Shown here in pieces: positions 6,712 to 34,507 of a DNA stretch of 64,000 bases; the first letter of the stretch is position 1, and each line of letters opens with the position of its first letter. The DNA is from Synechocystis sp. PCC 7509. Lineage in GTDB: Bacteria; Cyanobacteriota; Cyanobacteriia; Cyanobacteriales; Chroococcidiopsidaceae. The notes beneath the pieces were generated by a model. The model saw only the letters and a program-made list of their open reading frames with translations. It was not told the DNA's origin and made no database searches. The DNA lies in NCBI RefSeq assembly GCF_000332075.2, contig NZ_ALVU02000001.1:3670324-3734323 (forward strand), in the 5' to 3' direction. Both the position numbers and the translations under genes were made by a program.

Positions 6712-7566
6712 GTGGTAGAAACCTTAATGAAAAAACAGCTTAACTTAGAAATGTATAAGCAAGAAATAGCAGACTTATATACTGGTAGAAGCCAAACTTA
6801 TGACAATAGCAATTGGCATTTGCAGATTGCTCATCGCCTTGTTGAGTATGGACAAGTTAGTTCTGGTCAGTATATTTTAGACATTGCAACGGGAACAGGT
6901 CATGTTGCGATTTCTGCTGCTCAGTTAGTGGGTGTTGAAGGTAAAGTAATTGGTATAGATATTTCTTCTGGAATGCTGGAACAAGCAAGACATAAGACTG
7001 AAAGATTAAATCTCAAAAATATTGAATTTCAGCTTGCAGACGCTGAATTACTTAATTTTGCTACTAATAGTTTTGACCGAGTTTTCTGTTCATCTGCGTT
7101 TATCTGGATGTCCAATTTAAGTGCGGCGTTACGTCTTTGGCATAACTGTCTTAAACCTGGTGGAATTATAGGATTCCATGCTTTTGCTGATACCGCTTTT
7201 ATAAGTGGAGTGGTTACACAGAAAGTTGCTCAAAAGTACGGTATTTCATTTGTGAATAATAAGCCAACAGGTACAGTTGAAAAATGCCAAAACTTGCTTC
7301 AGCAGGCAGGATTTGAGACAATTGATATCAAAGTTGAACAAGATGGTAGTTATATCAGTTTAGATGAAGCTAAAAAAATGTGGCTTGGGGTTTCGCATCC
7401 TACACCTGGACAATATCCGCCTCCTTTATCACAACTTTCATTAGAGCAGTTGGCACAAGCTAAGGCTGAATTTGAGACAGAATTAGAGGCACTACAAACC
7501 GAGCAAGGAGTCTGGAATGATATTACTATCTTTTATGTATATGGTCGCAAACCAAAGATTCAATAG
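6712..7566 (+). CDS. UbiE/COQ5-like SAM-dependent methyltransferase
   Basis: 284 residues from GTG; an ATG five codons later (6727) is an equally possible start. SAM motif I (ILDIATGTGHVAISAA, about residues 60-75), an acidic D at GIDIS and the motif FCSSAFIWM are typical of small-molecule C- or O-methyltransferases of the Methyltransf_11/UbiE group. It is unlikely to be the menaquinone/phylloquinone enzyme itself, because it lacks a closely matching N terminus. The substrate is unknown. Confidence 0.8.
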   Translation: MVETLMKKQLNLEMYKQEIADLYTGRSQTYDNSNWHLQIAHRLVEYGQVSSGQYILDIATGTGHVAISAAQLVGVEGKVIGIDISSGMLEQARHKTERLNLKNIEFQLADAELLNFATNSFDRVFCSSAFIWMSNLSAALRLWHNCLKPGGIIGFHAFADTAFISGVVTQKVAQKYGISFVNNKPTGTVEKCQNLLQQAGFETIDIKVEQDGSYISLDEAKKMWLGVSHPTPGQYPPPLSQLSLEQLAQAKAEFETELEALQTEQGVWNDITIFYVYGRKPKIQ

Positions 7567-7692
7567 CTCAACTTCTCTTTAACAGAAAGTAAAAAACTAT
7601 ATTTATCTACGGTTTTACTCCAAAATCCCTAGCTTTCAAAATAGATAGCACTAATTTTATGCATAAACTGTAACTATTTACTTACTTATTTT

Positions 7693-10600
7693 GTGGTAAA
7701 TAATTTTCTATTTTCGCCTAGTAATGGGGATTATCAAGTCGGGGGAAATCTCCCGGTTGATGCTCCGACTTATGTTAAAAGACACGCTGACATCGAACTG
7801 TATAACAAGTTGCTGGCGGGAGAATTTTGTTATGTACTTAATTCTCGCCAAATGGGAAAATCTAGCTTGCGAGTGCAGGTTATGCACCAATTGCTTACTA
7901 ATAATATTGCTTGTGCGGTGGTCGATTTAACTACTATTGGCATAGAACAAGTTACTGTTGAGCAATGGTACGCTAGTTTAATCGCACTTTTAGTTAATAG
8001 TTTCAATTTAAAACTAAATTTGTCTGTTTGGTGGCGCGATCGCACTTTACTTTCTCCGGTACAACGTTGGAGTGAATTTGTAGAAACAATCCTATTAGTT
8101 GACATTAGTCAATCTATTGTAATTTTTATTGACGAAATTGATAGTGTTTTAAGTTTAAGGTTTCCGATTGAAGACTTCTTTGCGGCTATTCGTGCTTGCT
8201 ACAATCAACGCGCCGAAAAACCCGCTTATAATCGCTTAACTTTTGTCATGCTTGGGGTAGCAAATCCCGCCGACTTGATGCAAGATAAAAAGCGCACTCC
8301 TTTTAATATTGGACAAGCTATTGAACTACGAGGTTTTGAACTTGCAGAAGTTGAACCTTTAGAGAATAAAGTAATAACTAAATCGGTACTTCAAGCCCTA
8401 TTAAATTGGACTGGTGGGCAACCTTTTTTGACTCAAAAGCTATGTAAGTTAGTTGTACATTCTTCGGTAGTAATTACCGTAGGCGAGGAAGAATTAGCAA
8501 TTGAAAAAATAGTGCGATCGCAATTGCTCGAAAACTGGGAATCTCAAGACGATCCCACTCATTTGAAGACTATACGCGATCGCGTTTTAAAATCATCAAA
8601 ATCTGGTCAACTACTTGGACTTTACCAGCAAGTTTTAGTCAATAATACTGTGTTAGCTGATGATAGCTTTGAACAAATAGAATTGCGTTTATCGGGTTTA
8701 GTTGTTGAGAATAAAACGCATAATCAATCTGTAATTATAGTCTCTAATCGCATTTATGAAGAAGTTTTTAATAATAATTGGATATTAAAAGCTTTAGCAA
8801 ATTTGCGTCCTTACGGGGAAGCAATAGCCGTTTGGCTAACTACAAAAAATGAATCTTGGCTATTAAGAGGAAAAGCTTTACAGACGGCTCAAATTTGGGC
8901 AAAAAGCAAGAGTTTGAGCGATCAAGATTACTGGTTTTTGGATGCCAGCCGCGAGTTAGAAAACCGTGAATATCAAAAAGCTTTAGAAATAGAAAGACAA
9001 GCTAATCAAATATTAACTCAAGCACAGGAAAAAGCTCAGTTAGCTTTGATAGCAGAAAAAGAGTCAAATCAAAGATTAATTGCCACTCAAAAACAAATTA
9101 GACGTACAATTAAAGTTGGTTTTAGCATTTTGGTAGTAATTTCTACGATATCGGTAATTGTAGGTGGGCGAAGTTTATTATTATTAAAGCAAGCCGAAAA
9201 TCAAAACAGATTAGCAGAAGTTTCAAGATTGGTAGCAGCATCGCAATTGCTGCTGTTAAAACACGATCGCTTAGGAGCATTAATTGCCAGCATCAAAGCC
9301 GGGAAAAATGTTCAAAATACTGCTACAGATGATAATTTAAAAAATGAAATTATAAACACGCTACAACAAGCTGTTTACAGCATTCAAGAATTTAATCGTT
9401 TAGAAGGACATCTTGATAGTGTTAACGATGTTTCCTTTAGTCCTAATGGTCAAATTATTGCTTCTAGTAGCGCCGATGGCACAATTAAAACTTGGCGAAC
9501 TAATGGCAGTTTATCTAAAACTTTAATTGGTCATACGGGAGGCATAAATAGCATTAGTTTTAGTCCAGATAGTCAAGTAATTGCTTCCGCTAGTGATGAC
9601 AATACTATTAAACTTTGGCGCAACGATGGAATCAAAACTAAAACTCTGATTGGACACAAGCAACCCGTTGATAGTATTAGTTTTAGTCCTGACGGAAAGT
9701 TTATTGTTTCTGGTAGTTGGGATAATACAGTTAAACTTTGGCGTAGTAATGGCGAAGAAATTAAAACTACAATTCCTTTAAAACATCGCGGTGCAATATA
9801 TAGCGTTAGTGTTAGCGCGGATAGTGAAATTATTGCAAGTGCGGGACAAGCTGGCGATATTAAATTATGGACTCTTGACGGTAAAAATCGCACCACTTGG
9901 CAGGCACACAAAGACCAAGTTAATTATGTTAGTTTCAGTAAAAATCGCCAATTAATCGCCTCCGCTAGTAATGATGGCACAGTTAAACTATGGAAACTAG
10001 ACGGCACGTTGGTTAAAGTTTTAACTGGACATAAGGGCGCAGTTTATAGTAGTGCTTTTAGTCCCGACAATCAAACCATAGCCACCACAGGTAAAGATGG
10101 CACAGTTAAAGTGTGGCGGATGAAAGATTATACACAAATTAAAAATTTTCAAGCGCAAGGTAGAATTTATAGCGCAGGTTTTAGTCCAAATGGTGAAATA
10201 ATTGCTTCTGCAAGTTCCGATAATATAGTTAGACTTTGGAAATTAAATAACTTTTTGCGTCAAGACTTAGTAGGACATCGTGCGGAAGTCAATAGTATTG
10301 ATTTTAGTCCCAATAGTCAAAACCTCATCTCTGCAAGTCAAGACGGAACAATTAAACTTTGGCGAAGTAACGGGACTTTTGTCAAAACTATTGCCAAAGA
10401 TTCTAACTGGTTTACAAGCGTTAGTTTTAGTCCTAATGGTCAATTAATAGCCGCCTCCAACCGCAACAAAGCCGTGAAACTGTGGGATTCTCAAGCAAGA
10501 AGATTGTTAAAAACCCTAAATGGACACACTGCACCCGTTTATAGCGTTAGTTTCCATCCTAATAATCAAATATTGGCTTCAGGAAGCTACGATCGCACAA

Positions 10601-11220
10601 TCAAATTATGGAATACCAACGGCAAACTAATTCGTACCTTAACTGGTCATTTGGGACGAGTTTACAGCGTTGATTTTAGCTCGGACGGGCAGCTACTAGC
10701 GTCAGGAAGTAGCGATCGCACAATCAAATTATGGAGTACCAACGGCAAGCTAATTCGTACCTTAACGGGTCACAGAGGGCGGGTTTATAGCGTTGATTTT
10801 AGCCCCAATAGTCAGTTACTCGCTACCGTCAGCCAAGACGGTACAATCAAAATCTGGAATACTCGTAACGGCAAAGAAATTAGTAATTTGGTAGGACATC
10901 GAGGCGCGATTTATGGGGTTAGGTTTAGCCCGGATGGTGAAACGATTGCTTCTGGTGGTGACGATCGTATGGTTAAGCTTTGGGACTATCGTCAAGGTAA
11001 ATTACTAAAAACCTTTAGCGGACATCGTGCTGAAGTTAATAGTGTAAGTTTTAGCCCAAACGGTCAAATTTTAGCTTCCGTTGGTAGAGATAATATAGTA
11101 ATTTTGTGGAACTGGGATGTAGAATTTGAGCGCCTTTTGGAGCATAGTTGCAACTGGTTAGAGGACTATTTAGAGCATAATCCTAGCGTGGAAACGCGCG
11201 ATCGCTTTACTTGTAAATAG
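7693..11220 (+). CDS. AAA-like (AAA_35) ATPase with transmembrane segment and 14 WD40 repeats
   Basis: 1175 residues. Residues 1-370 are an AAA-like NTPase domain of the cyanobacterial family that opens with a conserved [15 protein letters not shown] block. Walker A (SRQMGKSS) is near residues 50-57 and Walker B (IVIFIDEID) near 141-149. A charged, coiled-coil-like stretch (about 425-470) leads to one transmembrane helix (about 474-496). WD40 repeats follow from about 569 to 1150; I count 14 GH-to-W/KLW units, enough for two seven-bladed propellers. The layout is that of a STAND-like sensor/switch ATPase with a propeller ligand-binding half on the other side of a membrane. The signal and effector are unknown. 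The following PPTase gene starts about 50 bp later. Confidence 0.88.
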
Positions 11221-11268
11221 TAGTCTTACCCAAAAATGGAGATATTTAGAAAAGAGGAAAGTTTTGCA

Positions 11269-11979
11269 ATGGTAATGCTCGATTGCAAGTGGCAGTTATC
11301 ACCAAGCCAGTTAGTAGCTAATAAAAATGAAGTTCATATCTGGCGCTCTAACCTCAATTTACCTACTGAAAAAGTAGATATACTAGCTCAAACTTTATCT
11401 ACCGACGAGCGCCAAAGATCAAAAAAGTTTCACTTTGAGCAAGATAGGCAAAGGTTTACTGTGGCGCGGGGATTGCTGAGGACGATTTTGGGTAACTATT
11501 TGAGCATACCCGCCGATCTTATAGAGTTTAGTTATGGGCAACACGGGAAGCCGGAAATTAAAGCTACTCCGTTGCGGTTTAACTTGTCGCACTCCCAAAA
11601 TTTAGTTTTGTATGCCATAACGTGCGATCGCAATTTGGGGATAGATTTAGAATTTATCCGCCCAGTTACGGAAGCTGAACACATTGCCAAGCGGTATTTT
11701 TCACCGCGCGAAAATGCAGGTTTTCAAGCTCTTTCCCCCGATCAAAAACCTACAGGCTTTTTTCACCACTGGACGCGCAAAGAAGCTTATTTAAAGGCTG
11801 TAGGGGCTGGTTTAGCGGCGGGTAACGATGATTTTGACGAAACTGTAGCCACAGAGAGCGATCGCGCCCATCGTTGGTTTTTGCGCTCTTTTGTTCCTGC
11901 CCCAAATTACTTAGCTACGGTAGCTGTAGAAGGCAACGGTTGGGATATTTTCTATCTAGAACCATCCTTCTTGCTCTAA
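11269..11979 (+). CDS. Sfp/HetI-type 4'-phosphopantetheinyl transferase
   Basis: It transfers the phosphopantetheine arm of CoA to the serine of carrier proteins. The motifs GIDLEFIRP and WTRKEAYLKAVGAGL, with the Mg2+-binding D and E residues, are present. I place the start at 11269, because AGAGGAAA lies 8 nt upstream; an in-frame ATG at 11236 lacks a ribosome site and would add 11 residues. The resulting 236 residues match the HetI-like group. It is the only such enzyme in the window and is the likely activator of the NRPS carrier domains encoded 4-16 kb downstream. Its last 24 bases overlap the convergent HEAT gene. Confidence 0.9.
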   Translation: MVMLDCKWQLSPSQLVANKNEVHIWRSNLNLPTEKVDILAQTLSTDERQRSKKFHFEQDRQRFTVARGLLRTILGNYLSIPADLIEFSYGQHGKPEIKATPLRFNLSHSQNLVLYAITCDRNLGIDLEFIRPVTEAEHIAKRYFSPRENAGFQALSPDQKPTGFFHHWTRKEAYLKAVGAGLAAGNDDFDETVATESDRAHRWFLRSFVPAPNYLATVAVEGNGWDIFYLEPSFLL

Positions 11980-16001: not shown

Positions 16002-19000
16002 TCAAGCAGTCAAATACTTGTTCAATTGTTTGGCTAAGGCTTGGACGTTGGGAGTTTTGAGCATTGTTAGATGATTTCCAGGTATAGAGTGTAATTCAAC
16101 AGAGTTTGTCAGTTGACTCCAGCCTAAAGTTGTGTCAGTCGTGGTTAGGGGTTCGTTGCTTTTGAATAATGCGATCGCGCCTGGGTAACTTTGGGGTGCA
16201 TAATTTACTGTAGCTTGGCTATTTGCCCAAAAAATCCGCATTATCCGCTCAATTGTTAGTTCGTCTAGCATTCGCAATCTAGTTTCTTGGGGGAAAAGGC
16301 TATTAACAGTTGCTTTTTCTAGTAAGGAAGTCCAACCATGAGGAGAAAAAATTTGCTTGAGGTAGGAATCGCAAATTAGCTCCCAGTAATCTAGTACAAA
16401 GGGATAAATAGAACCGGGTACAGTGGTAATAAGAAAATTCAAACTCTCCCAAATTGACGGTTGATTGCTGGGTATTGGTGCAAGGGTATCGAAAATTGCC
16501 AGTTTACTTACTGTTTCTCCTGCTTGGTGCAATTGTTGCGCCATTTCAAACGCAACTAAACCGCCAAAAGACCAGCCACCTAGTTGATACGCGCCTTTTG
16601 GTTGAATTTGACGCAAGGCTTTAATATAACAAGTTGCCATTTCTGCAATGCTGGTTAGTGGTGGCTGCAAACCGTCTAAACCGCAGGGTTGGAGGGCGTA
16701 AAATGGTTGATTTTTGCCTAAATGGGTTGCTAATTCGTAGTAGGGTAAAACAACGCCGAAAATAGGATGAATGCAGAAAAATGGTGTTTTAGCGCCTTGG
16801 GGTTGAAGCGGGACTATAGGCGACCAAATATAGTTTTTCTCGATATTTGGCGCGAATTGTTCGACGGTTGGCGCACTAAAAAGGGCGGATAAAGGTAGGT
16901 TTTGATGGAAATGTTGGTTTATTTGGTCTAATAGTTGAATTGCTAGTAGAGAATCTCCACCTAGTTCAAAAAAGCTGTCTTGTATTCCTACTTGCTCAAG
17001 TTTAAGAGTTTGCGCCCAAAATGTTGTTAAGGTCGATTCTGTGGCATTGCGAGGCGCTACAAAAGATTTGTTTGTAGAGATATTTGGGCTTTTTAGAGCA
17101 TTTCGGTCTACTTTCCCGTTGGGTGTTAAGGGTAGCGATGACAGGATAACGAAAGCTGAAGGGATGGAATAATTGGGTAATTTTTCTTTGAGAAAGTCGC
17201 TTAATTGAGCGGTGGAAAGGTTTAAGTTGGGATGAAAGACTATATAAGCTACCAGTTGAGTATTAGCAGCAGTTTCTTGAGTAATTACGGTGACGGCTTG
17301 AATTGCTGGATGTTGTAGCAACAAGCTTTCAATTTCTCCTAACTCTATCCGATAGCCGCGAATTTTAACTTGGTGGTCGATGCGTCCTAAAAATTCTAAT
17401 TTTCCGTTAGGGAGATAGCGGACTAAATCGCCAGTTTTGTAAAATTTTGGCGGTGAGACGTTGCATTGCAACGTCTCTACAAAAGGGTTGGGAATAAAAC
17501 TTTTAGCGGTTAATTCAGGACGATTGAGATAGCCTCGCGCTATACCTACTCCACCGATATATAATTCGCCGGGAATGCCTATAGGGACGGGTTGATAATT
17601 AGAGTCTAGAACGTAAACTTGGGTGTTAGCGATCGCATTTCCTATAGAAATACTATCCCCAATCTCTGCAATAGTTGACCAGATACTTGTCTCTGTTAAT
17701 CCGTAAGCATTAAATAATCGTCTGTTTTTTGTCCATTTCTCTATGTCTCCCGTCCAAGCTTCCCCCGCTAAAATTAGGGTTTGCAATGCTGGTAATTGTT
17801 CCGCTACAAGGGTTGTTAGGACTGCTGGGGGCAAGGTAGCGTGGGTAATGGAGTGGTAACGCAAATAAGTAGTTAAAGATGCTCCTAGACGCGATTTCTC
17901 TGGGATTAAGTAAAGACTTGCGCCGTTAGCTAATCCCATAACTATTTCAAAAATAGACGCATCAAAGCTAATTGAGGCAAATTGTAAAATCCGATGTTGC
18001 GGTTTGAGGTCAAAAGTCTGTCTCTGTGCGTGGATTACATTACTTAGTCCTCGATGTTCGATTAAAACACCCTTGGGTTGTCCTGTTGAACCAGAAGTAT
18101 AGATTGCATAAGCAAGATTTGCCGCTTTTACAGGACTTGTAGGATTATATTTATTTTGGAGTGCGATCGCCAAATCCTCAATAAAAACTAATTTATGCTC
18201 CCACTCCTCGGTAAATAAAGAGTTTTGAGTTATTAAAATAGTTATTTGCGAATCTTCCAGCATAAAGCGCGATCGCGCTTTGGGATATTCTGGATCTATT
18301 GGTAAATAAGCACCCCCAGCTTTGAGTATTCCTAAAATTGCGATAATTATTAACGGCGACTTTTCTAAACAAATCCCGACAATTACATCGGGTACAACTC
18401 CTAGGTTTTGTAAGTGATGGGCGATTTGGTTGCTTTGTTCGTTTAATTGCTGGTAGGTAATTTGCTCGTTATTGTGTACAAGTGCGATCGCACTAGGATT
18501 ATTATTTACTTGTTCCTCAAATATTTGCTGGATGCACTTATCGGGATAGTTTTGTTGCGTATTATTCCAGTCAATAAGTAACTGTTGGCGTTCGGTGGCG
18601 GTTAAAATGGGTAATTCGGCTAGTGTTTGCTGGGGATTATAAATAATTCCTGCTAGTAGAGTTTGCAAGTGTCCAGCCATGCGGAGGATTGTAGAGCGAT
18701 CGCATAAATCGGTACTATAAGTTATCTGTGCCTCTAATCCGGCGGAACTTTCCCAAAAATTCAACTCTAAATCTAACTTACTTGTGCCATTTTCAATCTC
18801 AAAGGGATTTAGGGTAAGTTCAGGTAATTCTAAGGCTGTAATCGGCGTGTTTTGCAGAGATATCGCTACTTGAAATAAGGGATGTTTGCTTAAATCTCGC
18901 GCTGGTTGAAGTTCTTGTACTAGCTTCTCAAAGGGTAAATCTTGATGGGCGTAAGCGTCTATTGTTACTTGTTTTACTTTTGCTAATAATTCTAAAAAAG

Positions 19001-19943
19001 TAAGATTACTAGATAATTGAACCCGCAAAACTAAAGTATTGACAAAAAAGCCAATTAATGGCTCTAGTTCGGCTCGATTTCGATTAGCAATGGGAGAACC
19101 TACAGCAATATCTGTTTGTCCTGTGTAACGATATAACAGTGTTTGCAAGGCTGCTAAAACCGTCATAAATAATGTAACCCCCTTTTGCTGGTTAAAGGCG
19201 GATAAAGATGCGCTGAGGCTGTGTGAAAGAGCTAAAAAGTTGTAGGTTGCACCTTTGTAAGTTTGGGTAGAATTACGAATGCGATTGCACGGTAAATTTA
19301 AACTTGGTAAATCGGCGAGTTGTGTCTTCCAGTAAGGTAATTGTGACTCGATTATTTTTGGTAACTCTTGTTTTTGCCAAGCGGCGAAATCAGCATATTG
19401 GATTGGCAAATCGGGCAATAACGAAGTATTTGTACAAAAAGCAGCGTAAAGCGCGGTAATTTCCTTAATTAATACGCCAATTGACCAACCATCAGCAATA
19501 ATGTGATGCAGACTTAGCAATAAAATAGAATCGCTGGAATCTAGTTGAAATATCGTTACTCGTAGCAGCAAATCTGTACTAAGGTTGAAGGGAAGATGAG
19601 AAAATGCGATCGCTCTTTGTCTTGCAGTATCTTCTCGCTCAAGTATAGGTAAATGTTGCAAGTCTACAAGTTTCAGATTTATACTTGCACTCTCAGCAAT
19701 TACTTGATTTAACTCTCTTTTCTCCATTGCAAAGGTTGTCCGCAAAACTTCATGACGGCGGATTATTTCGTTAAAGGTTTGTTTTAAAGCGGTTAAATTT
19801 AAGTTTCCAGTTAGACGAATCGCCGCAGAGACGTTGTAAAAAGGATTATTTGGTACTAATTGGCTGAGAAACCAAAGCCTTTGTTGAGCAAAAGAAGCCG
19901 GAAAAACAAAAACTTCATCGGTAGAAATAGGATGAGTATGCAA
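16002..19943 (-). CDS. NRPS terminal module: C-A-T-TE
   Basis: 1313 residues. The condensation domain (HHIIADG near 148) is followed by an adenylation domain (A3 TSGSTGQPKG near 612; A10 NGKVDRNAL near 942) and a carrier domain (GGDSLL near 1000). A type I thioesterase follows, with GWSFGG near 1121 and catalytic His in GNHLTML near 1290, so this is the last and releasing module. By eye the specificity code is D-A-F-T-I-A-A-I-W-K, closest to aromatic (Phe-type) codes but with an unusual W. It starts at TTG, three bases after the stop of the previous gene; its ribosome site (GGGAG) overlaps that gene's last codons, which indicates coupling. About nine residues near 821-829 come from an inserted palindromic repeat. 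Confidence 0.93.
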   Translation of the reverse strand: MHTHPISTDEVFVFPASFAQQRLWFLSQLVPNNPFYNVSAAIRLTGNLNLTALKQTFNEIIRRHEVLRTTFAMEKRELNQVIAESASINLKLVDLQHLPILEREDTARQRAIAFSHLPFNLSTDLLLRVTIFQLDSSDSILLLSLHHIIADGWSIGVLIKEITALYAAFCTNTSLLPDLPIQYADFAAWQKQELPKIIESQLPYWKTQLADLPSLNLPCNRIRNSTQTYKGATYNFLALSHSLSASLSAFNQQKGVTLFMTVLAALQTLLYRYTGQTDIAVGSPIANRNRAELEPLIGFFVNTLVLRVQLSSNLTFLELLAKVKQVTIDAYAHQDLPFEKLVQELQPARDLSKHPLFQVAISLQNTPITALELPELTLNPFEIENGTSKLDLELNFWESSAGLEAQITYSTDLCDRSTILRMAGHLQTLLAGIIYNPQQTLAELPILTATERQQLLIDWNNTQQNYPDKCIQQIFEEQVNNNPSAIALVHNNEQITYQQLNEQSNQIAHHLQNLGVVPDVIVGICLEKSPLIIIAILGILKAGGAYLPIDPEYPKARSRFMLEDSQITILITQNSLFTEEWEHKLVFIEDLAIALQNKYNPTSPVKAANLAYAIYTSGSTGQPKGVLIEHRGLSNVIHAQRQTFDLKPQHRILQFASISFDASIFEIVMGLANGASLYLIPEKSRLGASLTTYLRYHSITHATLPPAVLTTLVAEQLPALQTLILAGEAWTGDIEKWTKNRRLFNAYGLTETSIWSTIAEIGDSISIGNAIANTQVYVLDSNYQPVPIGIPGELYIGGVGIARGYLNRPELTAKSFIPNPFVETLQCNVSPPKFYKTGDLVRYLPNGKLEFLGRIDHQVKIRGYRIELGEIESLLLQHPAIQAVTVITQETAANTQLVAYIVFHPNLNLSTAQLSDFLKEKLPNYSIPSAFVILSSLPLTPNGKVDRNALKSPNISTNKSFVAPRNATESTLTTFWAQTLKLEQVGIQDSFFELGGDSLLAIQLLDQINQHFHQNLPLSALFSAPTVEQFAPNIEKNYIWSPIVPLQPQGAKTPFFCIHPIFGVVLPYYELATHLGKNQPFYALQPCGLDGLQPPLTSIAEMATCYIKALRQIQPKGAYQLGGWSFGGLVAFEMAQQLHQAGETVSKLAIFDTLAPIPSNQPSIWESLNFLITTVPGSIYPFVLDYWELICDSYLKQIFSPHGWTSLLEKATVNSLFPQETRLRMLDELTIERIMRIFWANSQATVNYAPQSYPGAIALFKSNEPLTTTDTTLGWSQLTNSVELHSIPGNHLTMLKTPNVQALAKQLNKYLTA
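17455..17480. repeat. Palindromic repeat, family B, inserted in frame within the NRPS adenylation domain
   Basis: GAGACGTTGCA and TGCAACGTCTC form perfect 11-bp arms around one base and are followed by TAC, matching the intergenic copy at 3137-3161 in design. It encodes roughly VETLQCNVS between the conserved NPF and FYKTGD segments. The sister modules in this operon have only a few residues, or unrelated ones, at this point. Confidence 0.75.
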
Positions 19944-19946
19944 GAA

Positions 19947-22900
19947 TTATCTCCCTAAGTTTTCAGGATTTTTGAGAGACGATCGCAAACGGCGATGAGC
20001 ATCACGAGAAAGCGGTACAATCCCTATGTCTGGCTGAGTTTTTTGGCTGCTTTGTAAGGTTTCGATAGTTTTAGCTAAAGGCACAATTTGAGGAGTTTCA
20101 AAGACTTTTTGCAAAGGTAACTCGACGCCGAAAGTCTCGCGGATGCGGGAAGTTAGTTGAGTAGCGAGTAAAGAATGTCCCCCCAACTGAAAGAAATTAT
20201 CGTCAATACCAACATTTTTTAGTCCTAGCAATTCTGCCCAAATATTTGCTAGTTTTTGTTGAGTAGGTGATGTAGGTGAAACTGCATTTTTGCCCCAATT
20301 TGGTACAGGAAGGGCGCGACGATTGACTTTACCATTAGTTGTTAAAGGTATTTTCTCTAACACTACAAAGGCAGCAGGTATCATATAATCGGGTAGATTT
20401 TGCTGGAGATAATGTTGTAACTGGGGGATGATTTGACGCGCCAATTGTGCTTGTAAAGGATTATTTGCGTCGGTTTTAGTTATATGTCTTTCTTTTATAA
20501 CTCCTGGAGTCGCTTTTTGACTAATACTTTGAAAAATCACATCATAGCAACCTGTAGCATCGGTATTTATCCAACTAACTTCGACAGTATAAGGAAGTTT
20601 ATTTAACTTATACCAATCTTCCGGCTCAATTCCCGATGTTTCTAACTGTTGCAATTCTTCGCGCATTTGATGGGCGTTTTGAGGCGATTCTGTATCATTA
20701 GTTAGCCATTGAGCGGTTTTAACGGCGGTTATAACACGAGAATTGGGAATTTTTGTTACTTGTAGAATAGCTGGCTGATTTTCGAGTAAATATTGACTTA
20801 CTTTGGAAATGCTTAGGTTATCTTGCTCCCAATCAAGTTGACAATCGGGAGTTGGGGTTTTTTGAGATTCAATATGCAAGATGGCGTTGTAGCGAAATTG
20901 GGTTAGTTCATTGCGATCCGCGCGATCGCATTCCCGTGTAAGCTGTACTTGGACGTGACTAATTTTTTTAAAGCGCTGTTTCAATGCGGGAAAGAAAGCC
21001 GGATCGATAACTAATTCCGTCTCTTGAAATAATGCTGCTTGTAACTGTTGCTGTAACTGCTCTTTAGACGAATCCCCCTCCGAATGTTGTAGTTGTACGG
21101 CGGCGTGAAAAGCTGACAATAGTTGTAAGTTTCGTACATCTCCAATAAATATAAATCCTCCAGGGGTGACGGTTTCAATTGCTTTCTCTAATACTTGCAA
21201 TAGGTAATCGAGGCTAGGAAAATATTGGATTACAGAATTAAGAATCACTGCATCAAAAGAGTTTGCAGCTATTCCAGTAAAATCTGTTGCTAGTTGTTGC
21301 AGCAATTTAACTTGTGGTAAGGGTTGCAATAAAGGCTTTAAATATTGAATGGATGCGGCGGAAAAATCGGTTGCTACATATTCGCTGCAATGAGGCGCAA
21401 TTTTAAACAGCAACAAACCCGTACCGCAACCAATCTCTAACACTCGCTCTGGTTGTAATGCTAAAATTTGCTCTACGCGACTATTTACCCATGTCTGCAT
21501 TTGCTCGGTAGGTATGGGAAGCCCTGTATAACTACTATTCCAACCGATAATATTAAAATTAGATTCCTTTGCAGATTGGCTATAAGTGCGATTGTAGAGA
21601 TTTTCCCATTGTAATACTAGCTCTAATTGCAACTGCTGTTCTACTGTTGTTTGAGGGACAATGTAGGCAATAATGCGATCGCTATTAACAAGTGCGATCG
21701 CATTTTCAACCATTGGATGCTGTTTTAACACTGTTTCTATTTCGCCTAACTCTATCCGAAACCCGCGAATTTTTACTTGCTCGTCAATGCGCCCAATAAA
21801 TTCTAAACTTCCATCATGACGATAAAGGGCGAGATCCCCAGTTTTGTATAAGCGATTATTTGCAAAAGGATTGTTAATAAACCTCTCTGCTGTTAATTCT
21901 GCTTGATTCAAATAACCCCGCGCTATACCATCCCCAGCAATGTAAATCTCGCCAACAACGCCAATGGGGACGGGAAAAAGGCGATTGCTTAATAAATAAA
22001 TCTGTGTATTCGTTACAGGACGACCGATAGAGGGATTTTCATCCGAAACCATCAATTTAGTCGTCGTCGCCCATATAGTCGTCTCTGTCAGTCCGTAGGC
22101 GTTAAATAGACGGCGATCTGTTGCCCATTGTTGGACAATTTCTGTTGTACAAGCTTCACCACCAGCAATAACCGTTTGCAGTAAAGGTAATTTGGACGCG
22201 GGTAAAACGGCTAAAACTGATGGAGAAATGATCGTTGTATTGATCGCGTTTGTCTGCAAAAATTCTATTAAATCTTTTCCTGGTAACTGGGCTTTTTTGG
22301 GGGGAATGTAGAGAGTTGCACCAACGCCAAAAGCAAGTAATATTTCAAAAATAGAAGCATCGAAGCATAAAGAGCTAAATTGTAAAATCCGGTTATGCGA
22401 TCGCAATTCAAAAGCTTTTATCTGTCCTACAACTACATTACACAATCCGCGATGCTCAATTAAAACTCCTTTTGGTTGTCCTGTCGAGCCAGATGTATAA
22501 ATAATGTAAGCAAGATTATCTAGATTTGCGCTGCTGGTGGGATTTTCGGTGCTGTAAGCGTCGATATTTTCGTCTGTATCCAAGCAGATTAGTTTGATGT
22601 CTGCAAATAGCGATGTTAAAGACTGCTGAGTTAAAACTACTTTTACTTGTGTATCGGTAAGCATAAACTCTCTACGGCTTTGGGGATAATTTGGATCTAT
22701 TGGTACATAAGCGCCACCCGCTTTAAAAATCCCTAGTATCCCGACAATCATTTCTAGCGACTTCTCAACGCAAATCCCTACTAAACTTTCTGGCTTAATT
22801 CCCAACTCTTGCAAGTAATGCGCTAATTGATTAGCTCTATGATTCAATTGTTGGTAGGTTAGTGTTTGATTGTCGAAGACTAGAGCGATCGCATTTGGTG

Positions 22901-24512
22901 ATTTTTCGGCTTGCTCCTCAAACAGTTGATGAAATAATTTATCGCTATAACTACAGCTAGTTTGATTCCATTCTTCTAATAACTGATGGCTTTCTGCATC
23001 ACTCAATAAAGGTAAATCGGCTATGGGAATATCAGGATTTGCCACAATTGCTGTAAGTAATGTTTGAAAATGAGCGAGAAACTGAGAAATTGTGTTTTTA
23101 TCGAATAAATCGGTATTGTAAGCCAAAAAACCGCTAATTCCCTCGCTTTTTTCCTCCCATAATCCACTTAATCCGTAACTTTGCTCCCACAAATGCAACT
23201 CTAAATCGAATCTTGTAGTAGTAACCTCAAACTGCAAAGGATTTAAGGTTATTCCTGGTAACTCCAAAGGTTGCATTGGGGCATTTTGGAGCGCGAAAAC
23301 CACCTGAAACAAAGGGTTTCGGCTCAAATCTCTTTCAGGGTGCAATTCTTCTACTAGCTTCTCAAAAGGTAAATCTTGGCGATCGTAAGCTTCTATTGTC
23401 TTCTCTCGCACTCGTCCTAGCAATTCCCTAAAGGTAGGATTGTTAGATAAATCTGTGCGTAATACTAAACTATTCACAAAGAAGCCAATCAAAGGTTCTA
23501 ATTCTGCTCGATTGCGATTTGCGATCGCAGATCCAACTACAATATCTTCTTGTCCTGTATAACGACTCAGCAATACTTGAAAAGCTGCAAGCATTGTCAT
23601 AAATAAGGTTGAGCCTGTTTGCTTGCTTAAAGTTTTTAATCCCGCGCTCAAAGCTGGAGATAAAGAGATATTTTGTGTCGCACCTTTATAGCTTTGCACT
23701 CCTTTTCGTGGTTTTGTAGGCAAATTTAGCATCGGAAGGTCAGCAAGTTGAGCTTTCCAGTAAGATAATTGACTTTCTAAAACTTCTCCTTGCAAATACT
23801 TTCTTTGCCAAAATGCGAAGTCTGCGTATTGAATAGCTAAGGGTGGTAAAGGTTGATTTGTATACAGTAGTCCAATTTCCCGAATTAATACCCCCAGTGA
23901 CCAACCATCAGCAACGATATGATGGAGATTGAGCAGTAAAACATATTCATCTTCGCTTAACTGCAATAGTTTGACGCGCAACAACAACTCTTTGGCTAAG
24001 TTAAACGGATGCTGGGCTTCTTGTGTAGCAATGTTTTGAGCGGCGGCTTGTCTTTCTGTTACGGGTAAATGCTGCAAATCTACTACAGGCAAAGATACAT
24101 CAATTTGGGGAGATGCGATCGCTATTGGTTGTCCGTTAACTTCAACAAAGTTGGTACGCAAAGCTTCATGACGTTGGACAATTTTATTAAAGGCTTGTTT
24201 TAAAGCTAAATAATCTAGCTTTCCACTAAGACGCAAAGCCGCAGGTATATTGTAAAAAGGATTTTCGGGAATAAGCTTGTCTAAAAACCACAACCTTTGT
24301 TGAGCGAAAGATAAACAAGTGCGATTAGTTTGGGGTATTAAAGGAGGAGATGGACTAAGTAAAGCAATTAACTGTGACTTGTATTTGATGATATGCGATC
24401 GCATTTCCTCTGTTAAAATTCCTTGAGGAGCGTTACATTGCAAGCTTTCCCCTTCTACAAACACCTGAATATCTAAACGTCGTAAATCCGCCAATAATTC
24501 AATAGCACTCAA
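19947..24512 (-). CDS. NRPS middle module with TubC-like docking domain and embedded methyltransferase: C-A(MT)-T
   Basis: 1521 residues. Residues 1-55 resemble a TubC N-terminal docking domain. A condensation domain (HHIVADG near 197) is followed by an adenylation domain (TSGSTGQPKG near 670) that is interrupted after A8 (FRIELGEIE) by a SAM methyltransferase (VLEIGCGTG near 1024). A9-A10 (NGKVNRRAL near 1397) and a carrier domain (GGHSLLA near 1445) follow. Methyltransferases in this position usually N-methylate the bound amino acid. The code read by eye is D-A-F-I-I-G-A-I-W-K, hydrophobic but not clearly assignable. The start ATG overlaps the previous stop by 4 bp. The docking domain should recognise the C terminus of the upstream subunit. 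Confidence 0.93.
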   Translation of the reverse strand: MSAIELLADLRRLDIQVFVEGESLQCNAPQGILTEEMRSHIIKYKSQLIALLSPSPPLIPQTNRTCLSFAQQRLWFLDKLIPENPFYNIPAALRLSGKLDYLALKQAFNKIVQRHEALRTNFVEVNGQPIAIASPQIDVSLPVVDLQHLPVTERQAAAQNIATQEAQHPFNLAKELLLRVKLLQLSEDEYVLLLNLHHIVADGWSLGVLIREIGLLYTNQPLPPLAIQYADFAFWQRKYLQGEVLESQLSYWKAQLADLPMLNLPTKPRKGVQSYKGATQNISLSPALSAGLKTLSKQTGSTLFMTMLAAFQVLLSRYTGQEDIVVGSAIANRNRAELEPLIGFFVNSLVLRTDLSNNPTFRELLGRVREKTIEAYDRQDLPFEKLVEELHPERDLSRNPLFQVVFALQNAPMQPLELPGITLNPLQFEVTTTRFDLELHLWEQSYGLSGLWEEKSEGISGFLAYNTDLFDKNTISQFLAHFQTLLTAIVANPDIPIADLPLLSDAESHQLLEEWNQTSCSYSDKLFHQLFEEQAEKSPNAIALVFDNQTLTYQQLNHRANQLAHYLQELGIKPESLVGICVEKSLEMIVGILGIFKAGGAYVPIDPNYPQSRREFMLTDTQVKVVLTQQSLTSLFADIKLICLDTDENIDAYSTENPTSSANLDNLAYIIYTSGSTGQPKGVLIEHRGLCNVVVGQIKAFELRSHNRILQFSSLCFDASIFEILLAFGVGATLYIPPKKAQLPGKDLIEFLQTNAINTTIISPSVLAVLPASKLPLLQTVIAGGEACTTEIVQQWATDRRLFNAYGLTETTIWATTTKLMVSDENPSIGRPVTNTQIYLLSNRLFPVPIGVVGEIYIAGDGIARGYLNQAELTAERFINNPFANNRLYKTGDLALYRHDGSLEFIGRIDEQVKIRGFRIELGEIETVLKQHPMVENAIALVNSDRIIAYIVPQTTVEQQLQLELVLQWENLYNRTYSQSAKESNFNIIGWNSSYTGLPIPTEQMQTWVNSRVEQILALQPERVLEIGCGTGLLLFKIAPHCSEYVATDFSAASIQYLKPLLQPLPQVKLLQQLATDFTGIAANSFDAVILNSVIQYFPSLDYLLQVLEKAIETVTPGGFIFIGDVRNLQLLSAFHAAVQLQHSEGDSSKEQLQQQLQAALFQETELVIDPAFFPALKQRFKKISHVQVQLTRECDRADRNELTQFRYNAILHIESQKTPTPDCQLDWEQDNLSISKVSQYLLENQPAILQVTKIPNSRVITAVKTAQWLTNDTESPQNAHQMREELQQLETSGIEPEDWYKLNKLPYTVEVSWINTDATGCYDVIFQSISQKATPGVIKERHITKTDANNPLQAQLARQIIPQLQHYLQQNLPDYMIPAAFVVLEKIPLTTNGKVNRRALPVPNWGKNAVSPTSPTQQKLANIWAELLGLKNVGIDDNFFQLGGHSLLATQLTSRIRETFGVELPLQKVFETPQIVPLAKTIETLQSSQKTQPDIGIVPLSRDAHRRLRSSLKNPENLGR

Positions 24513-27500
24513 AACTCTACCTCCTCTCGATTAGTAGTATTTTTGCTACTGGCTATATATTCCGCAAGTCCTAAAATAGTTGGAGTTTCAAACACTCTTT
24601 TTAGCGGTACTTGTACGCCAAAACTCTCGCGGATTCTAGAAACTAGCTGTGTTGCAAGTAGTGAATGTCCACCTAATTCAAAAAAGTTATCGCCAATCCC
24701 TGCGTTAACGCCTAATAATCCATTCCATAACTCTAATAATTGGACTTCAACGGAGTTACGCGGAGTTTTGTTAGAGATATTTTGTGTAAAATCTGGTGTA
24801 GGAAGGGATAAGCGGTCTACTTTACCATTGATTGTTAAAGGTAATTTCTCCAAAAATACAAAAACCGCCGGAATCGAATAGTTTGGTAACTTTGCTTGCA
24901 AAAACTCTTTCAATTGCGAGCTTTTTAGTTGTACCGAAGCAACGATATAAGCAACTAAACTCTCATCTTTAACTACAACGACACTTTCTTTTACTTGGGG
25001 ATGCTGATTAATTACCGTTTCAACTTCCCCCAATTCAATCCGAAAACCCCGCAACTTTACTAAATCATCTTTACGTCCAATAAATTCTAAATTCCCATCG
25101 GGTAAATATCGCCCAAAATCGCCAGTTTTGTACAAACGCGCTGATTTAAGCCAAGGATGAGCAATAAATTGTTGCGCTGTTAATTCAGGGCGATTAAAAT
25201 AACCTTGCGCCAAACCATCGCCACCAATATAGATTTCTCCTGCAACTCCTACAGGTACAGGGTTTAAATAGTTATCTAATAAATATATTTGCGTATTTGC
25301 GATCGCCTTTCCAATCGGTATAGTCTTTAATTGTGTTACATTCTCCACCTCGTACCAAGTAGTAAAGGTAGTATTTTCTGTAGGGCCATAGACGTGCAAC
25401 AAGTGCTGAGGCTTGCTTTCAAACACAGATTGCACCGATTTCACATCTACAACTTCACCGCCAAACAGCAAATATTTCAAATCTTTAAAAGCTGAGGGAA
25501 TTTCTCGCGCAATCTGGTTAAATAAAGCTGTAGTCAAAAATAAAATATCAATCTCTTGCTGTTGGAGAGTTTGAGCAAAATCTGGAGGAGAAAGCAAAGT
25601 TTCTCTATCAATCCCCACTAACTGCAATCCGTTTAAAAGTGCGCCCCAAATCTCAAAAGTCGCCGCATCAAAGGAAATATTGGCACATTGAGCAACTTTG
25701 TTGCATCCTTTCCAGGTGATGTAATTAGAATTAATTAATCTATTTACCGCTTGATGAGTTACAGCAACACCTTTAGGAATGCCTGTAGAGCCAGAAGTAT
25801 AAATTATATAAGCTAGAGTTGCGGCGGTGGATTGGTTAGGGAGATTTTCATGGCTTTGCAGTGCTAATTTTTGCCAATCTTTATCTAAACAAAGGATTTG
25901 CGTATTAAAAAAAAGGTGAGAAAAGCTACTATGGGTAACGATCGCACTTAAGCCCGTATCTTCTACCATAAACTGAAGTCGCTCTACAGGATAAGCTGGA
26001 TCTAATGGTACATAAGCGCCTCCAGCTTTAAGAATACCCAGCATTACAGATACCATTACAGGCGTTGATTCTAAGCAAATTCCAACTAATGAATCTTTAC
26101 CCACACCGAGTTTTTGCAAATAACGCGCCAGTTGATTGCTACCGTTATTTAGCTGCTGGTAAGTAACTTGACGATCTTTATAGTTAAGGGCGATCGCATT
26201 TGGATTATTATTTACCTGAATCTCAAACAACTGTTGAATAGACAGATGTTTTTGATAATCGCGCTGCGTCTGATTCCATTCCACCAAAATCAGATTTTTT
26301 TCAGCAACGCTCAATAAAGGCAAATCGGCTAACTTAGTATCAATATTCTCAACCGCGCCAGTTAACAGGGTTTGAAAGTGTTGAAGTAATAAAGCGATCG
26401 CATTCCCATCAAATAAAGCAGTATTGTAAACTAAAACTCCCCGCAATCCTGCCGATTGTTGCCATTTATCCCCCCACAAGCTTCTAAAATCTTCGCCGCA
26501 CTCCCACAAATAAAACTCCAAATCAAACCTAGCTGTTGTCGTCTCGATTTCTTTAAAAGGTGCAAGAGTCAACCCCGGCAACTCTAATTGCTCTATAGGG
26601 GCATTTTGCAGAGCAAACACGACCTGAAACAAAGGATTTTGATTTAAACTTCGTTCGGGGTGCAATTGCTCTACCAGCTTCTCAAAAGGCAAGTCTTGAT
26701 GAGCGTAAGCGCCTACAGCAACTTGCTTAACTCTGGCTAATAACTCTTTAAAACTAGGATTATTTGATAAATCAGTGCGAATAACTAAACTATTAGCAAA
26801 AAAACCGATCGCATCTTCCAATTCTCGGCGATTGCGGTTAGCAATGGGAGATCCGACAGCAATATCTGTTTGTCCAGTATAACGACACAACAAAGCCTGA
26901 AAAGCTGCAAGCAATGTCATATATAGGGTTACACCTTCTTGCTGACTAATAAAGGCGATTTTCTGCGCCAACTCTTGAGGTAATTCTAATAACTCCGTTG
27001 CACCCTTATAACTATGTTGTAAAGGACGATAGGGAGCAATTTCTAGCAAAGGTAGATTTTTTAACTGTGATTTCCAGTAAGTTAACTGTTTTTGTAACAC
27101 ATCTCCTTGCAAATATTCTTGCTGCCAATGGGCAAAATCTGCATACTGAATAGTTACTTCTTCCAGGGGGGAAGGTAAACCTTTACAAAAAGCAGTGTAA
27201 ATTATGCCCAATTCTCGAATTAGTAAAGCGCTTGACCATTCATCAAAGATTATGTGGTGTAATGCGATCGCTAATATATATTCTCCCGCCCCAATTTGCC
27301 ACAAATTTACCCTTAATAGCGTTCCCTGCTCTAAATTAAAAGGTTTTTGACTAAATACCGCGATTTCTTGCTGCGCTGCGGCTTCTCTTTCCCCTATAGG
27401 TAAAGGTTGTAAATCAATTAATTGTATAGATATTTGTAAATCCGGTAAAACAATCTGTACGGGTTTTCCGTCTACAGTGTCAAAATTAGTACGTAATACT

Positions 27501-27709
27501 TCATGACGACGGACAATTTCATTAAAGCTTGCTTCTAAAGCGGCAATATCCAGCAAACCAGTTAGCCGCAAGACATTCACCACGTTGTAGCAGGCAGAAT
27601 TAGGAAATAGGCGATCGAGAAACCATAGCCGTTGTTGTCCAAAGGATGCCGGAAAAACAAAAACTTCTTCGTCAGAAACATTGCACCGATGCGATCGCGC
27701 TAAAGTCAT
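24509..27709 (-). CDS. NRPS first module: C-A-T
   Basis: 1066 residues and the promoter-proximal gene of the operon. The condensation domain has HHIIFDEW near residues 150-157 instead of HHxxxDG: the catalytic second His and the Asp are kept but Gly is Glu. The adenylation domain follows (TSGSTGIPKG near 640, NGKVDRLSL near 960), then a carrier domain (GGHSLLA near 1014). The specificity code by eye is D-A-F-F-L-G-V-T-F-K, of the branched aliphatic (Val/Ile) type. A leading C domain in the first module suggests acylation of the first residue or docking to an upstream partner not encoded here. Its N terminus (EEVFVFPASF) closely resembles that of the terminal module, suggesting duplication. 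Confidence 0.92.
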   Translation of the reverse strand: MTLARSHRCNVSDEEVFVFPASFGQQRLWFLDRLFPNSACYNVVNVLRLTGLLDIAALEASFNEIVRRHEVLRTNFDTVDGKPVQIVLPDLQISIQLIDLQPLPIGEREAAAQQEIAVFSQKPFNLEQGTLLRVNLWQIGAGEYILAIALHHIIFDEWSSALLIRELGIIYTAFCKGLPSPLEEVTIQYADFAHWQQEYLQGDVLQKQLTYWKSQLKNLPLLEIAPYRPLQHSYKGATELLELPQELAQKIAFISQQEGVTLYMTLLAAFQALLCRYTGQTDIAVGSPIANRNRRELEDAIGFFANSLVIRTDLSNNPSFKELLARVKQVAVGAYAHQDLPFEKLVEQLHPERSLNQNPLFQVVFALQNAPIEQLELPGLTLAPFKEIETTTARFDLEFYLWECGEDFRSLWGDKWQQSAGLRGVLVYNTALFDGNAIALLLQHFQTLLTGAVENIDTKLADLPLLSVAEKNLILVEWNQTQRDYQKHLSIQQLFEIQVNNNPNAIALNYKDRQVTYQQLNNGSNQLARYLQKLGVGKDSLVGICLESTPVMVSVMLGILKAGGAYVPLDPAYPVERLQFMVEDTGLSAIVTHSSFSHLFFNTQILCLDKDWQKLALQSHENLPNQSTAATLAYIIYTSGSTGIPKGVAVTHQAVNRLINSNYITWKGCNKVAQCANISFDAATFEIWGALLNGLQLVGIDRETLLSPPDFAQTLQQQEIDILFLTTALFNQIAREIPSAFKDLKYLLFGGEVVDVKSVQSVFESKPQHLLHVYGPTENTTFTTWYEVENVTQLKTIPIGKAIANTQIYLLDNYLNPVPVGVAGEIYIGGDGLAQGYFNRPELTAQQFIAHPWLKSARLYKTGDFGRYLPDGNLEFIGRKDDLVKLRGFRIELGEVETVINQHPQVKESVVVVKDESLVAYIVASVQLKSSQLKEFLQAKLPNYSIPAVFVFLEKLPLTINGKVDRLSLPTPDFTQNISNKTPRNSVEVQLLELWNGLLGVNAGIGDNFFELGGHSLLATQLVSRIRESFGVQVPLKRVFETPTILGLAEYIASSKNTTNREEVEF

Positions 27710-32655: not shown

Positions 32656-34507
32656 AAACCGCTCGTAAAAAATGCCCTCCCAACGTAAAGAAACTGTCAT
32701 CTATCCCCACAGGTTCAATCCCAAGAAACTACGCCCAAATTTCTGCTAGTTTTTCCTCAATTAGGTTTGTGGGGGTAACAAATTCCTCAGTCAAATTTGG
32801 TCGAAATCGGTTTGATTCTGGTAGCGCTCGACGATCAACTTTGCCATTAGAAGTTACTGGTAGAGCCTCCAAGACAACAAAAACTGACGGGATAGCGTGT
32901 TCGGGTAGTTCTTCTCTTAGCAAAGCTTGTAGCTGTCTTACTAGCTTGTTAATATTTTGTTTTTCTTCCGGATGATTAGCGTAAGTATGCCAGAGTTGAA
33001 TAGCTTTGTACTGATCTTTTGGAAAAAATTGCGATTCTAAAACCAAATAAGCAGCTAAGTATTTGTCTCCCTGCGCCAAATCTTCCCGCGCCACAACCAC
33101 AGTTTCTCTAACGGCACAATGTTGAGCAAGAGTAGTTTCAATATCCTCTAGATCAACACGGAAACCGCGAATTTTTACTTGATTGTCGATACGTCCGATA
33201 AATTCAATTGTCCCGTTAGGTAGATAACGCGCCAAATCTCCAGTTTTGTATAAGTACTTAGGTTTATCGCTAAAAGGATTAGGTACAAATTTGTCTACCA
33301 TTTGTTCCCGATTAAAGTAGCCGCAAGCCAAACTTGCGCCACCAATCCACATTTCCCCTACTACACCCACTGGTACAGGTTTAATAGGGTCACTTTTGCG
33401 CCTTAGCAAGTGATCTAGTAAATATATTTGAGTATTAGCAATTGGTCTACCTATAAAAATTTGTGTTTGATTAGGCTTTACTTGGCAAATAGTAGACCAA
33501 CTTGTGGTTTCAGGAGCGCCGTACATATTCCATACGGAGCGTACCTTTGTTAATAACTGCTGTGCTAGTCTTTTGGGCAATACTTCGCCGCCACAGAGAA
33601 CTTTTAGCTGTTTATTTCCTTGCCAACCAGAGGCTAAAAGACTCCGCCAAGTGCTAGGAATTGCCTGCATAACTGTAATGCCTTGAGCGAGGCTTTGGGC
33701 TAGTTTTGCACTATTGGCAGCAACTTCGCGGCTAACTAAAACAATTTCCGCCCCGACAATTAGCGGTAAGTAAATTTCTAAGCTGGCAATATTAAAACTC
33801 ATTGTAGTTGTAGCAATCATTACATCTTGGGCGTTCATTCCTGGCTCGTCACGCATGGAAGATAAAAAATTGACTACTGCTTGATGGCTAATTTGTACGC
33901 CTTTGGGTTTGCCCGTACCAGAATTGTAGATAGTGTAAGCTAAGTTATTTGCAGTAACGTTACTGTCTAGGTTGGAGTCTCTACAAAGCGCGATCGCGCT
34001 CTCCTCCTCGTCCATGATTACCGTATGGGCTGCGTGAACAGGTAGGCGCTCTAAGCAACCAAGTTCTGTTAATAAAACTGGAAGTTGCAAGTCTTGCAAC
34101 ATAAACGCCAAGCGATCGTAAGGATAGGCGGGATCTAATGGTACGTAAGAGCAACCAGCTTTGAGAATGCCGAGTAATCCCACAATTAAATCAAGACTTC
34201 GCTCTAAGCAAATACCTACCATAGTTTCTGGTACAACATTTGCTTTTTGTAAGTATCGAGCCACTTGGTTTGCGCGTTGATTTAACTGTTGGTAAGTCAG
34301 TTGCCGATCTTCAAATCTAACAGCTATTTTTTGAGGAGTTTTTTTTACTTGTTCTTCAAATAGTTGATGAATACATTTGTTTTGAGGGTAATTAGTTTTT
34401 GTGTTATTCCATTTTTTTAGTATCTGTTCTTTTTCCCTGGAACTAAGCAAAGAAAAATCTATAACTTGTTCTTGTGTTAGCGAAAAATTACCTTTGATAT
34501 TTTTCAT
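32656..34507 (-). pseudogene. Decayed stand-alone NRPS module (A-T) with premature stop and lost carrier serine
   Basis: The open frame from 34507 to 32729 encodes an adenylation domain with its C-A linker but no condensation domain. Four lesions are visible. The A3 loop reads NSGTGKPKG, one codon shorter than TSGSTGKPKG. The A4 core has Asn (FNIASLE) where Asp should bind the amino group. A TAG stop at 32729-32731 follows EIWA, where Gln or Glu is expected. Reading through the stop gives FLGIEPVGIDDSFFTLGGHF, a carrier domain whose phosphopantetheine serine is Phe, and a second stop comes soon after. The remaining code (N-I-L-Q-L-G-M-S-W) resembles glycine-type codes. It is probably a relic of a larger synthetase. 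Confidence 0.88.

Follow-up and report, generated by a model that had tools for sequence, protein, structure and literature searches.

Within the 64,000-nucleotide stretch of DNA analyzed here (the window), which spans 3670324-3734323 of contig 1 of its genome, three adjacent genes on the minus strand, designated A, B, and C, make up what is, judging from the sequence, a real, intact-looking nonribosomal peptide synthetase (NRPS) operon, ordinary in kind. Our preferred reading, in which we place modest confidence, is that of a self-bounded three-protein line whose product would be a probably N-acyl-capped Ile/Val followed by an N-methylated residue and an aromatic residue, with release by a thioesterase (TE). 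The genes, domains, motifs, gene order, and conservation described below were read from the sequence itself, and the residues are predicted from adenylation (A) domain code and lineage. The features on which the reading draws are as follows.

11236-11979, plus strand: HetI-like 4'-phosphopantetheinyl transferase (PPTase), the only PF01648 match in the genome
13547-15040: AmpG-family MFS permease gene, two genes downstream
16002-19943, minus strand: gene C, 1313 aa, TTG start; NRPS module 3, C-A-PCP-TE (Pfam)
19947-24512, minus strand: gene B, 1521 aa, TTG start; NRPS module 2, TubC_N-C-A-nMT-PCP (Pfam)
22008-22445, minus strand: A-core segment of gene B, residues about 690-835, assigned to the aromatic lineage
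24509-27709, minus strand: gene A, 1066 aa; NRPS module 1, C-A-PCP (Pfam)
26288-27664, minus strand: condensation (C) domain of gene A (C1), residues about 16-474, motif HHIIFDEWS

A sequence-only reading of this DNA had described a three-module NRPS operon with one N-methylation domain and a releasing thioesterase, and its coordinates, strand, gene order, and domains all agreed with the open reading frames (ORFs) and the Pfam models. The ORFs of genes A and B share 4 nt, and a 3-nt gap separates those of B and C. Models for C, A, and PCP scored over cutoff in each of the three genes, as did five methyltransferase (MT) models and the TubC_N docking domain in gene B and a thioesterase model at the end of gene C. 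The MT, which carries the SAM motif VLEIGCGTG, is inserted within the C-terminal part of the gene B A domain (MT models at about residues 1009-1142; the match to the AMP-binding C-terminal model picks up again at 1364). HHxxxD is intact in all three condensation domains (C1, C2, and C3), and the A-domain motifs are intact in all three modules. The translations contain the PCP serine motifs GGHS, GGHS, and GGDS (genes A, B, and C, respectively) and, in gene C, the TE motifs GGWSFGG and PGNHLTML, the former kept in 10/10 TEs inspected. The hallmarks of a modular NRPS (C-A-PCP modules in order, a terminal TE, and core motifs) were thus all found, with DEW replacing DGW in C1.

Boundaries of the gene set

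We scanned 17 flanking ORFs between 3198 and 42044. As had been proposed, none of them is a PKS or tailoring gene. The permease nearby belongs to the AmpG family, which imports muropeptides, so the proposal that no exporter lies beside the cluster stands for the ORFs scanned. A condensation-domain search of the organism's own genome returned 18 matches: three in the window (C1 to C3), 14 in another NRPS cluster, and a fragment of 57 residues that lies elsewhere, beyond the window. There is therefore no further condensation or epimerization domain of this family in the window, which bears out the earlier statement that it holds no epimerase. The 14-match cluster is located at 2072274-2108500, 1.6 Mb away. 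The sequence-only reading had allowed for further modules elsewhere in the genome; another NRPS cluster does exist, but it looks separate, because it has its own FAAL-like part at the front and contains E-type domains.

The PPTase gene, which the sequence-only reading had passed over, is about 4 kb from gene C, and its HetI score of 227 bits is below the model cutoff of 370. Its product would presumably activate the PCPs of A, B, and C as well as other carriers. Upstream genes (csaB, pgeF, a lipB-like gene, and an M23 gene) recur beside the trio in some members of the genus, and downstream genes (psb29, ampG-like, GNAT, HEAT, and the PPTase) recur beside it in two genomes. The neighboring psb29 gene marks the host as a cyanobacterium. 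At 17 loci outside the genus, read with short flanks, the only counterparts of genes from the 3 to 45 kb part of the window were a PPTase and A-domain paralogues; the PPTase of genome G049 is 44% identical to that of the window. As the flanks are otherwise unmatched outside the genus, the unit looks like A, B, and C. A promoter scan gave 26 sites against a shuffle mean of 31.9, and terminators numbered 7 against 12.1.

Predicted residues and the module-2 adenylation core

We aligned the A domains and read their codes at the GrsA positions, which gave DAFFLGVTFK for A1 (gene A), DAFIIGAIWK for A2 (gene B), and DAFTIAAIWK for A3 (gene C). The A1 code reads as Ile/Val. An identical code is found in OciB-A5 and OciC-A7 of the oci cyanopeptolin synthetase, where the source gives Ile or Val at those peptide positions and also allows Leu (PMC2533009); that synthetase has seven A domains and makes an Ahp-containing peptide, and we saw no cluster-level relation to the window. 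In aeruginosin-type clusters, DAFFLGVTFK corresponds to L-Ile, or to D-allo-Ile with an epimerase, according to excerpts of PMC13122637. These cyanobacterial precedents uphold the aliphatic first residue that had been predicted from the sequence. Four further codes (DAFTIAAVWK, DAFIIGAIWK, DAFTIAAIWK, and DAFLIGAIWK) had no match in the literature searched by code string, and for this reason the A2 and A3 residues are uncertain. With regard to a match to an already characterized cluster, which the sequence-only reading had considered, the A1 code alone was found in print, while the A2 and A3 codes were without a match.

Lineage provides a second line of evidence on these two domains. In the trees, A3 groups with A domains coding DAWTIAAVCK and DASTIAAVCK, which we take to be Phe and Tyr codes. 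A tree restricted to 152 core columns placed A3 together with the A2 cores of the window's clade, 14 in number, among Phe- and Tyr-code reference domains (support, 100/99). By this placement A3 is a member of the aromatic adenylation lineage, in keeping with the aromatic third residue proposed earlier.

The position of the A2 core was examined across 24 module-2 A domains, comprising the 14 from the window's clade and 10 Nostoc-type domains with DAWFLGNVVK, presumably a Leu code. Residues 721-800 of gene B are only 11-28% identical to three Nostoc-type B proteins and 38-52% identical to three module-3 proteins; the other lowest stretches of gene B relative to the Nostoc-type proteins are at 1281-1360 (26-44%) and in the tail. 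Placing all 24 module-2 A cores in one clade was rejected (log-likelihood 153.7 lower; p-AU 8.6e-69). With the flanking columns, the tree did not join all of the module-2 A domains, and a single clade was compatible with the data (p-AU 0.131). The MT domains of the 24 module-2 rows fell on one side of a branch separating them from nine other MTs (98/98). Taken together, the flank, core, and MT results suggest that the B proteins are one lineage in which the origin of the A core differs between clades; it looks like the module-2 A core was swapped between clades while the surrounding parts were kept. A full-domain FastTree placed the A2 core beside the A3 of the window's clade (0.914). The more careful core tree places A2 beside all of the A3 domains and the Phe/Tyr references, so that module 3 is only one possible donor, and the swap may have run in either direction. 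Swaps of the A-core subdomain are known in NRPS evolution, and exchange limited to the core with the flanks kept is described as typical in the accessible text of PMC8097286; the present case resembles those in its core-limited exchange and would add one more to them, from a family with no linked product.

The N-methylated hydrophobic residue predicted earlier stands as to its N-methylation. The residue itself, in the window's clade, is probably aromatic or bulky on the basis of an A core of the Phe/Tyr lineage, and in the Nostoc-type relatives it is, going by code and lineage, Leu-type.

A family with natural variants

The operon is not unique, as the trio is one of a family with members in other cyanobacteria. 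With gene A as the query, 60/388 genomes of the order, the organism's own included, gave a match of at least 1,150 bits. This count is a lower bound, with orthology judged by score alone and just two candidates scored in each genome, and two of the 60 matches contain stops; in G020 and G056, gene A was read separately, yet the score survey had only another gene. For close comparison we used 23 gene A copies, the window's included, a set that leaves the matches in G015, G022, G029, and G032 outside. The three genes lie together in G002, G003, and G004, as they do in G009, G012, and G016; they are split over contigs in a metagenome-assembled genome (G001 MAG) and accompanied by intervening genes in G020, G049, G050, and G056. 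Three Nostoc plasmids carry the trio in the order C-A-B. Three genomes have gene C apart from A and B: it is about 1.1 Mb away in G010 and on a separate contig in G037 and G043, where the genes are away from contig ends. In G029, a C-type gene and gene A are on different contigs, with no B among the matches listed. None of the 2,723 plasmid records with a match reached 60% identity to gene B.

A two-module form, in which B is fused to the family TE, occurs in four genomes (G007, G013, G017, and G018), with no gene C in the 20 kb read in each. The B-type tail is still readable between the PCP and the TE in 4/4 of these fusions, as would be expected if a three-gene ancestor had lost module 3. 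One gene of Nostoc C052 begins like gene C and continues as the A-MT-PCP of B, an arrangement that a deletion spanning a C-A-B array would produce.

The docking ends are likewise conserved across the family. Every one of the 23 gene A products compared has RE[ED][VIA][EK][FL] at its C terminus (REEVEF in the window copy), and Pfam places TubC_N at the start of gene B, with none in genes A or C. The C-terminal tail of gene B reads LSRDAHRRLRSSL here and LSRESRRIKLSSL and similar in the Nostoc-type proteins. From these ends we infer two pairings, that of the REEVEF end with TubC_N and that of the B tail with gene C. Genes A and C share an N-terminal beginning (...EVFVFPASFAQQRLWF), and we considered it as a docking motif common to both. 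The two-module form weakens this idea: there the B tail is buried between the PCP and the TE and gene A keeps the same kind of N terminus, so the resemblance probably reflects no more than how a C domain begins.

In the literature searched by code, taxon, architecture, docking, recombination, starter domain, and microginin, in which few subscription journals were covered, we found neither a product tied to the cluster nor a description of this widespread cyanobacterial family. The accessible portion of PMC8600333 does not mention the Nostoc plasmids and strains that carry the trio. A broader interpretation, which we offer tentatively and regard as somewhat doubtful as a whole, is that of a widespread peptide family, without a description in the literature searched, made by three separable one-module synthetases, with two-module fusion descendants that retain a fossil docking linker and a C1 whose donor would be unusual: a trans-supplied acyl cap or else the growing chain of the same line. 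The family could be the source of a small peptide in many cyanobacteria from three genes only. It also supplies natural experiments for NRPS engineering: a core-only A swap altering the predicted N-methylated residue, and an intact-looking two-module line that arose by subunit-TE fusion and still has the docking tail in its linker. Decay also occurs in the family; gene C of G006 stops inside its A domain, with a transposase gene adjoining, and the B match of G015 contains 13 stops.

The first condensation domain and the start of the chain

The sequence-only reading had predicted a tripeptide-scale product. Three modules are a fair core for such a product, but C1 calls for a capped or iterated start. 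That reading had overlooked the condensation domain with which gene A opens. We placed this domain in a FastTree of 203 C and E domains, among them 23 C1, 23 C2, and 15 C3 domains. C1, C2, and C3 together formed one clade (0.994) inside the elongation-type domains. C1 lay outside another clade (0.997), which held three N-terminal C domains and three C domains taken as FAAL-fed from their preceding context, with weak or absent model support. The FAAL-fed C domain of the organism's own genome, the only genome in which FAAL was checked by model, and two domains beside FAAL-like genes, labeled, like the other references, from context, fell among LCL-like domains. Among solved structures, C1 scored best with Txo1 and Txo2 (333 bits each), compared with 53 bits for the CDA synthetase I chain, which we take to hold a starter C domain.

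HHxxxD was kept in C1 of 23/23 gene A copies, the window's included, as HHxxxDEW in 14/23 and HHxxxDDW in 9/23; DGW was kept in C2 (23/23, one row of which, L087, is C3-like by tree) and in C3 (15/15). DEW or DDW was also present in 12 other C domains of the reference set, 9 of them internal elongation domains and 3 N-terminal. Because internal elongation domains carry it, the change need not mean that C1 is inactive, and HHxxxD[E/D]W is ruled out as a mark of starter domains. Relative to two genus relatives, omega was 0.154 and 0.156 for C1, 0.108 and 0.139 for C2, and 0.196 and 0.127 for C3. C1 is under purifying selection, to roughly the same degree as C2 and C3. It appears to be kept as a working part, yet unlike a classic starter domain, and its kept motif and constraint suggest that the chain is probably N-capped or that the line is iterative.

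We favor the first of these two options, the capped line. C1 would most likely be functional and would join an acyl cap, supplied in trans, to the first residue. Gene A would load Ile/Val and pass it on where its REEVEF-type C terminus meets the TubC_N of B; gene B would add the N-methylated residue, probably aromatic or bulky and hydrophobic, and hand the chain to gene C through its conserved LSRDAHRRLRSSL-type tail; gene C would add the aromatic residue, and the TE would free the chain, presumably by hydrolysis or cyclization. The predicted product is a small lipophilic N-acyl tripeptide. The 17 ORFs scanned beside the cluster include no FAAL or other gene for an acyl donor, and PF23024, which marks the FAAL-like part here, has one match in the genome, in the other NRPS cluster. 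We also considered the free-standing adenylation protein encoded at 32729-34507 as a loader of C1 and rejected it: Asn occupies the Asp235 position, the A3 loop lacks one residue, and the PCP relic that follows the stop is missing its Ser. The protein is nonetheless constrained. The conservation of C1 frames a clear question, namely, which donor it accepts.

The absence of an acyl donor among the ORFs scanned, the elongation-type placement of C1, and its DEW or DDW in place of the DGW of C2 and C3 would also suit a plain tripeptide, in which C1 would be silent or have only a structural role, A1 starts with free Ile/Val, and the TE hydrolyzes or cyclizes the chain. We regard this as the strongest of the alternatives, although rather unlikely: a C1 that keeps HHxxxD in every copy under constraint about equal to that of C2 and C3 does not make a free-amine tripeptide the natural reading, and the altered motif is shared with the 9 internal elongation and 3 N-terminal domains noted above.

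The second option, an iterative line, would return the B chain to C1 so that A and B are reused before C releases the product, as in rhabdopeptide synthesis. Since A and C begin alike, a B tail that meets C could also meet A, and C1 is LCL-like. Separate monomodular subunits, an N-methyl module, and TubC-type docking are features shared with the rhabdopeptide/xenortide synthetase Kj12ABC in the accessible text of PMC6195595, with TubC_N recognized by Pfam in gene B alone here. Kj12 ends in a stand-alone amine-using C domain; the own-genome condensation-domain search found no such terminal domain in the window, where a TE releases the chain instead. This difference, along with a two-module form that buries the B tail between PCP and TE while leaving the N terminus of A as it was, makes iteration improbable in our judgment, more so than the plain tripeptide.

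The nearest logic that we found is, at the level of domain order, the peptide half of a microginin-type synthetase, with a different C-domain lineage. Locus L174 on plasmid p1 of Planktothrix agardhii No.66, microginin-type by gene order, encodes a module, then a Leu-type TubC_N-C-A-nMT-PCP module, and then a Tyr-type module with a TE, so that, as in the window, an N-methylating TubC_N module precedes an aromatic-code module with a TE. L174 differs in that a FAAL, an ACP, and a PKS-NRPS protein precede these modules and an ABC-cassette gene follows them; none of these is among the window ORFs scanned. In an Antarctic Aliterella, an NRPS region of 22,042 bp has microginin as its nearest known cluster, at 28%, in the part of PMC12587747 available; that region may be the same cluster as the window's, or possibly another. 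Despite this similar module logic and the Aliterella match, we consider it very improbable that the operon is a degenerate or silent microginin-type leftover that has lost a FAAL-PKS-aminotransferase front, given that the NRPS domains are constrained, that no FAAL, ACP, PKS, or aminotransferase was found in the 17 window ORFs scanned or in 17 ORFs scanned around the loci of relatives, and that identity to the L174 proteins is 46% for B and C and 39% for A, with the three L174 C domains outside the C1-C2-C3 clade. The L174 protein that precedes the TubC_N partner ends in DRQEIEI, an acidic hydrophobic stretch, where gene A of the window ends in REEVEF.

The adenylation gene and PPTase gene beside the NRPS block

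Two further genes of the window are considered with NRPS genes A, B, and C:

11236-11979, plus strand: PPTase gene, near the NRPS genes and the sole PF01648 match of the genome
32729-34507, minus strand: stand-alone adenylation protein

In G049, one of the genomes compared, a HetI-like PPTase gene (17331-18083 of locus L074) also directly adjoins gene A. The order of genes here, compared with that in Chlorogloea CCALA 695 and in Chroococcus NPC107, is consistent with a single inversion of 11236-32569, spanning the PPTase gene to the M23 peptidase gene. Such an inversion would have caused the stand-alone adenylation gene to switch sides of the block.

The adenylation protein carries Asn at the Asp235 position and has an A3 loop shorter by one residue. 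Downstream of the stop codon of its gene lies the remnant of a PCP that lacks the Ser. We read five homologues from genus relatives: four share the Asn, and three of these four share the short loop (in the fourth, the loop was not matched), while the G003 homologue is canonical. The selection measure omega was 0.17-0.18 for this gene against three relatives and 0.30 between the copies of two of those relatives. Either the gene encodes a pseudoenzyme that has been conserved, or it is a young pseudogene.

Plasmid-borne, rearranged, and decayed copies of the family

Three Nostoc plasmids (L084, L085, and L086) carry the family in the gene order C-A-B, and on L084 and L085 a phage-type integrase gene lies near the family genes. 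Further features of loci of this family are:

L087 12917-17542: Nostoc C052 plasmid gene with a gene C-like start followed by the A-MT-PCP of gene B
L070 13131-14240, L075 6416-7525, and L084 10468-11577, opposite strand: gene for a 369-amino-acid alpha/beta hydrolase
L082 1-4172: truncated gene C of genome G006, which stops inside its A domain

The gene C-like part of the L087 gene comprises the N terminus and a C3-type condensation domain, and the gene is a natural chimera of genes C and B. The alpha/beta hydrolase gene sits between A and B in all three loci, and its product may be an extra hydrolase for release or editing. In G006, a gene matching DDE_Tnp_1 and Nterm_IS4 lies just past the end of gene C, and the domain sets of A and B are complete.

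Other features of the genome and window

G000:C1:2072274-2108500 (L088-L090): second NRPS cluster of the Synechocystis genome, FAAL-like at its start and containing several E-type domains
7693-11220, plus strand: 1,175-amino-acid protein with many WD40 repeats

The second cluster is likely a lipopeptide line. The WD40-repeat gene lies in a low-G+C stretch of the window (0.36-0.37 at 6001-10000).
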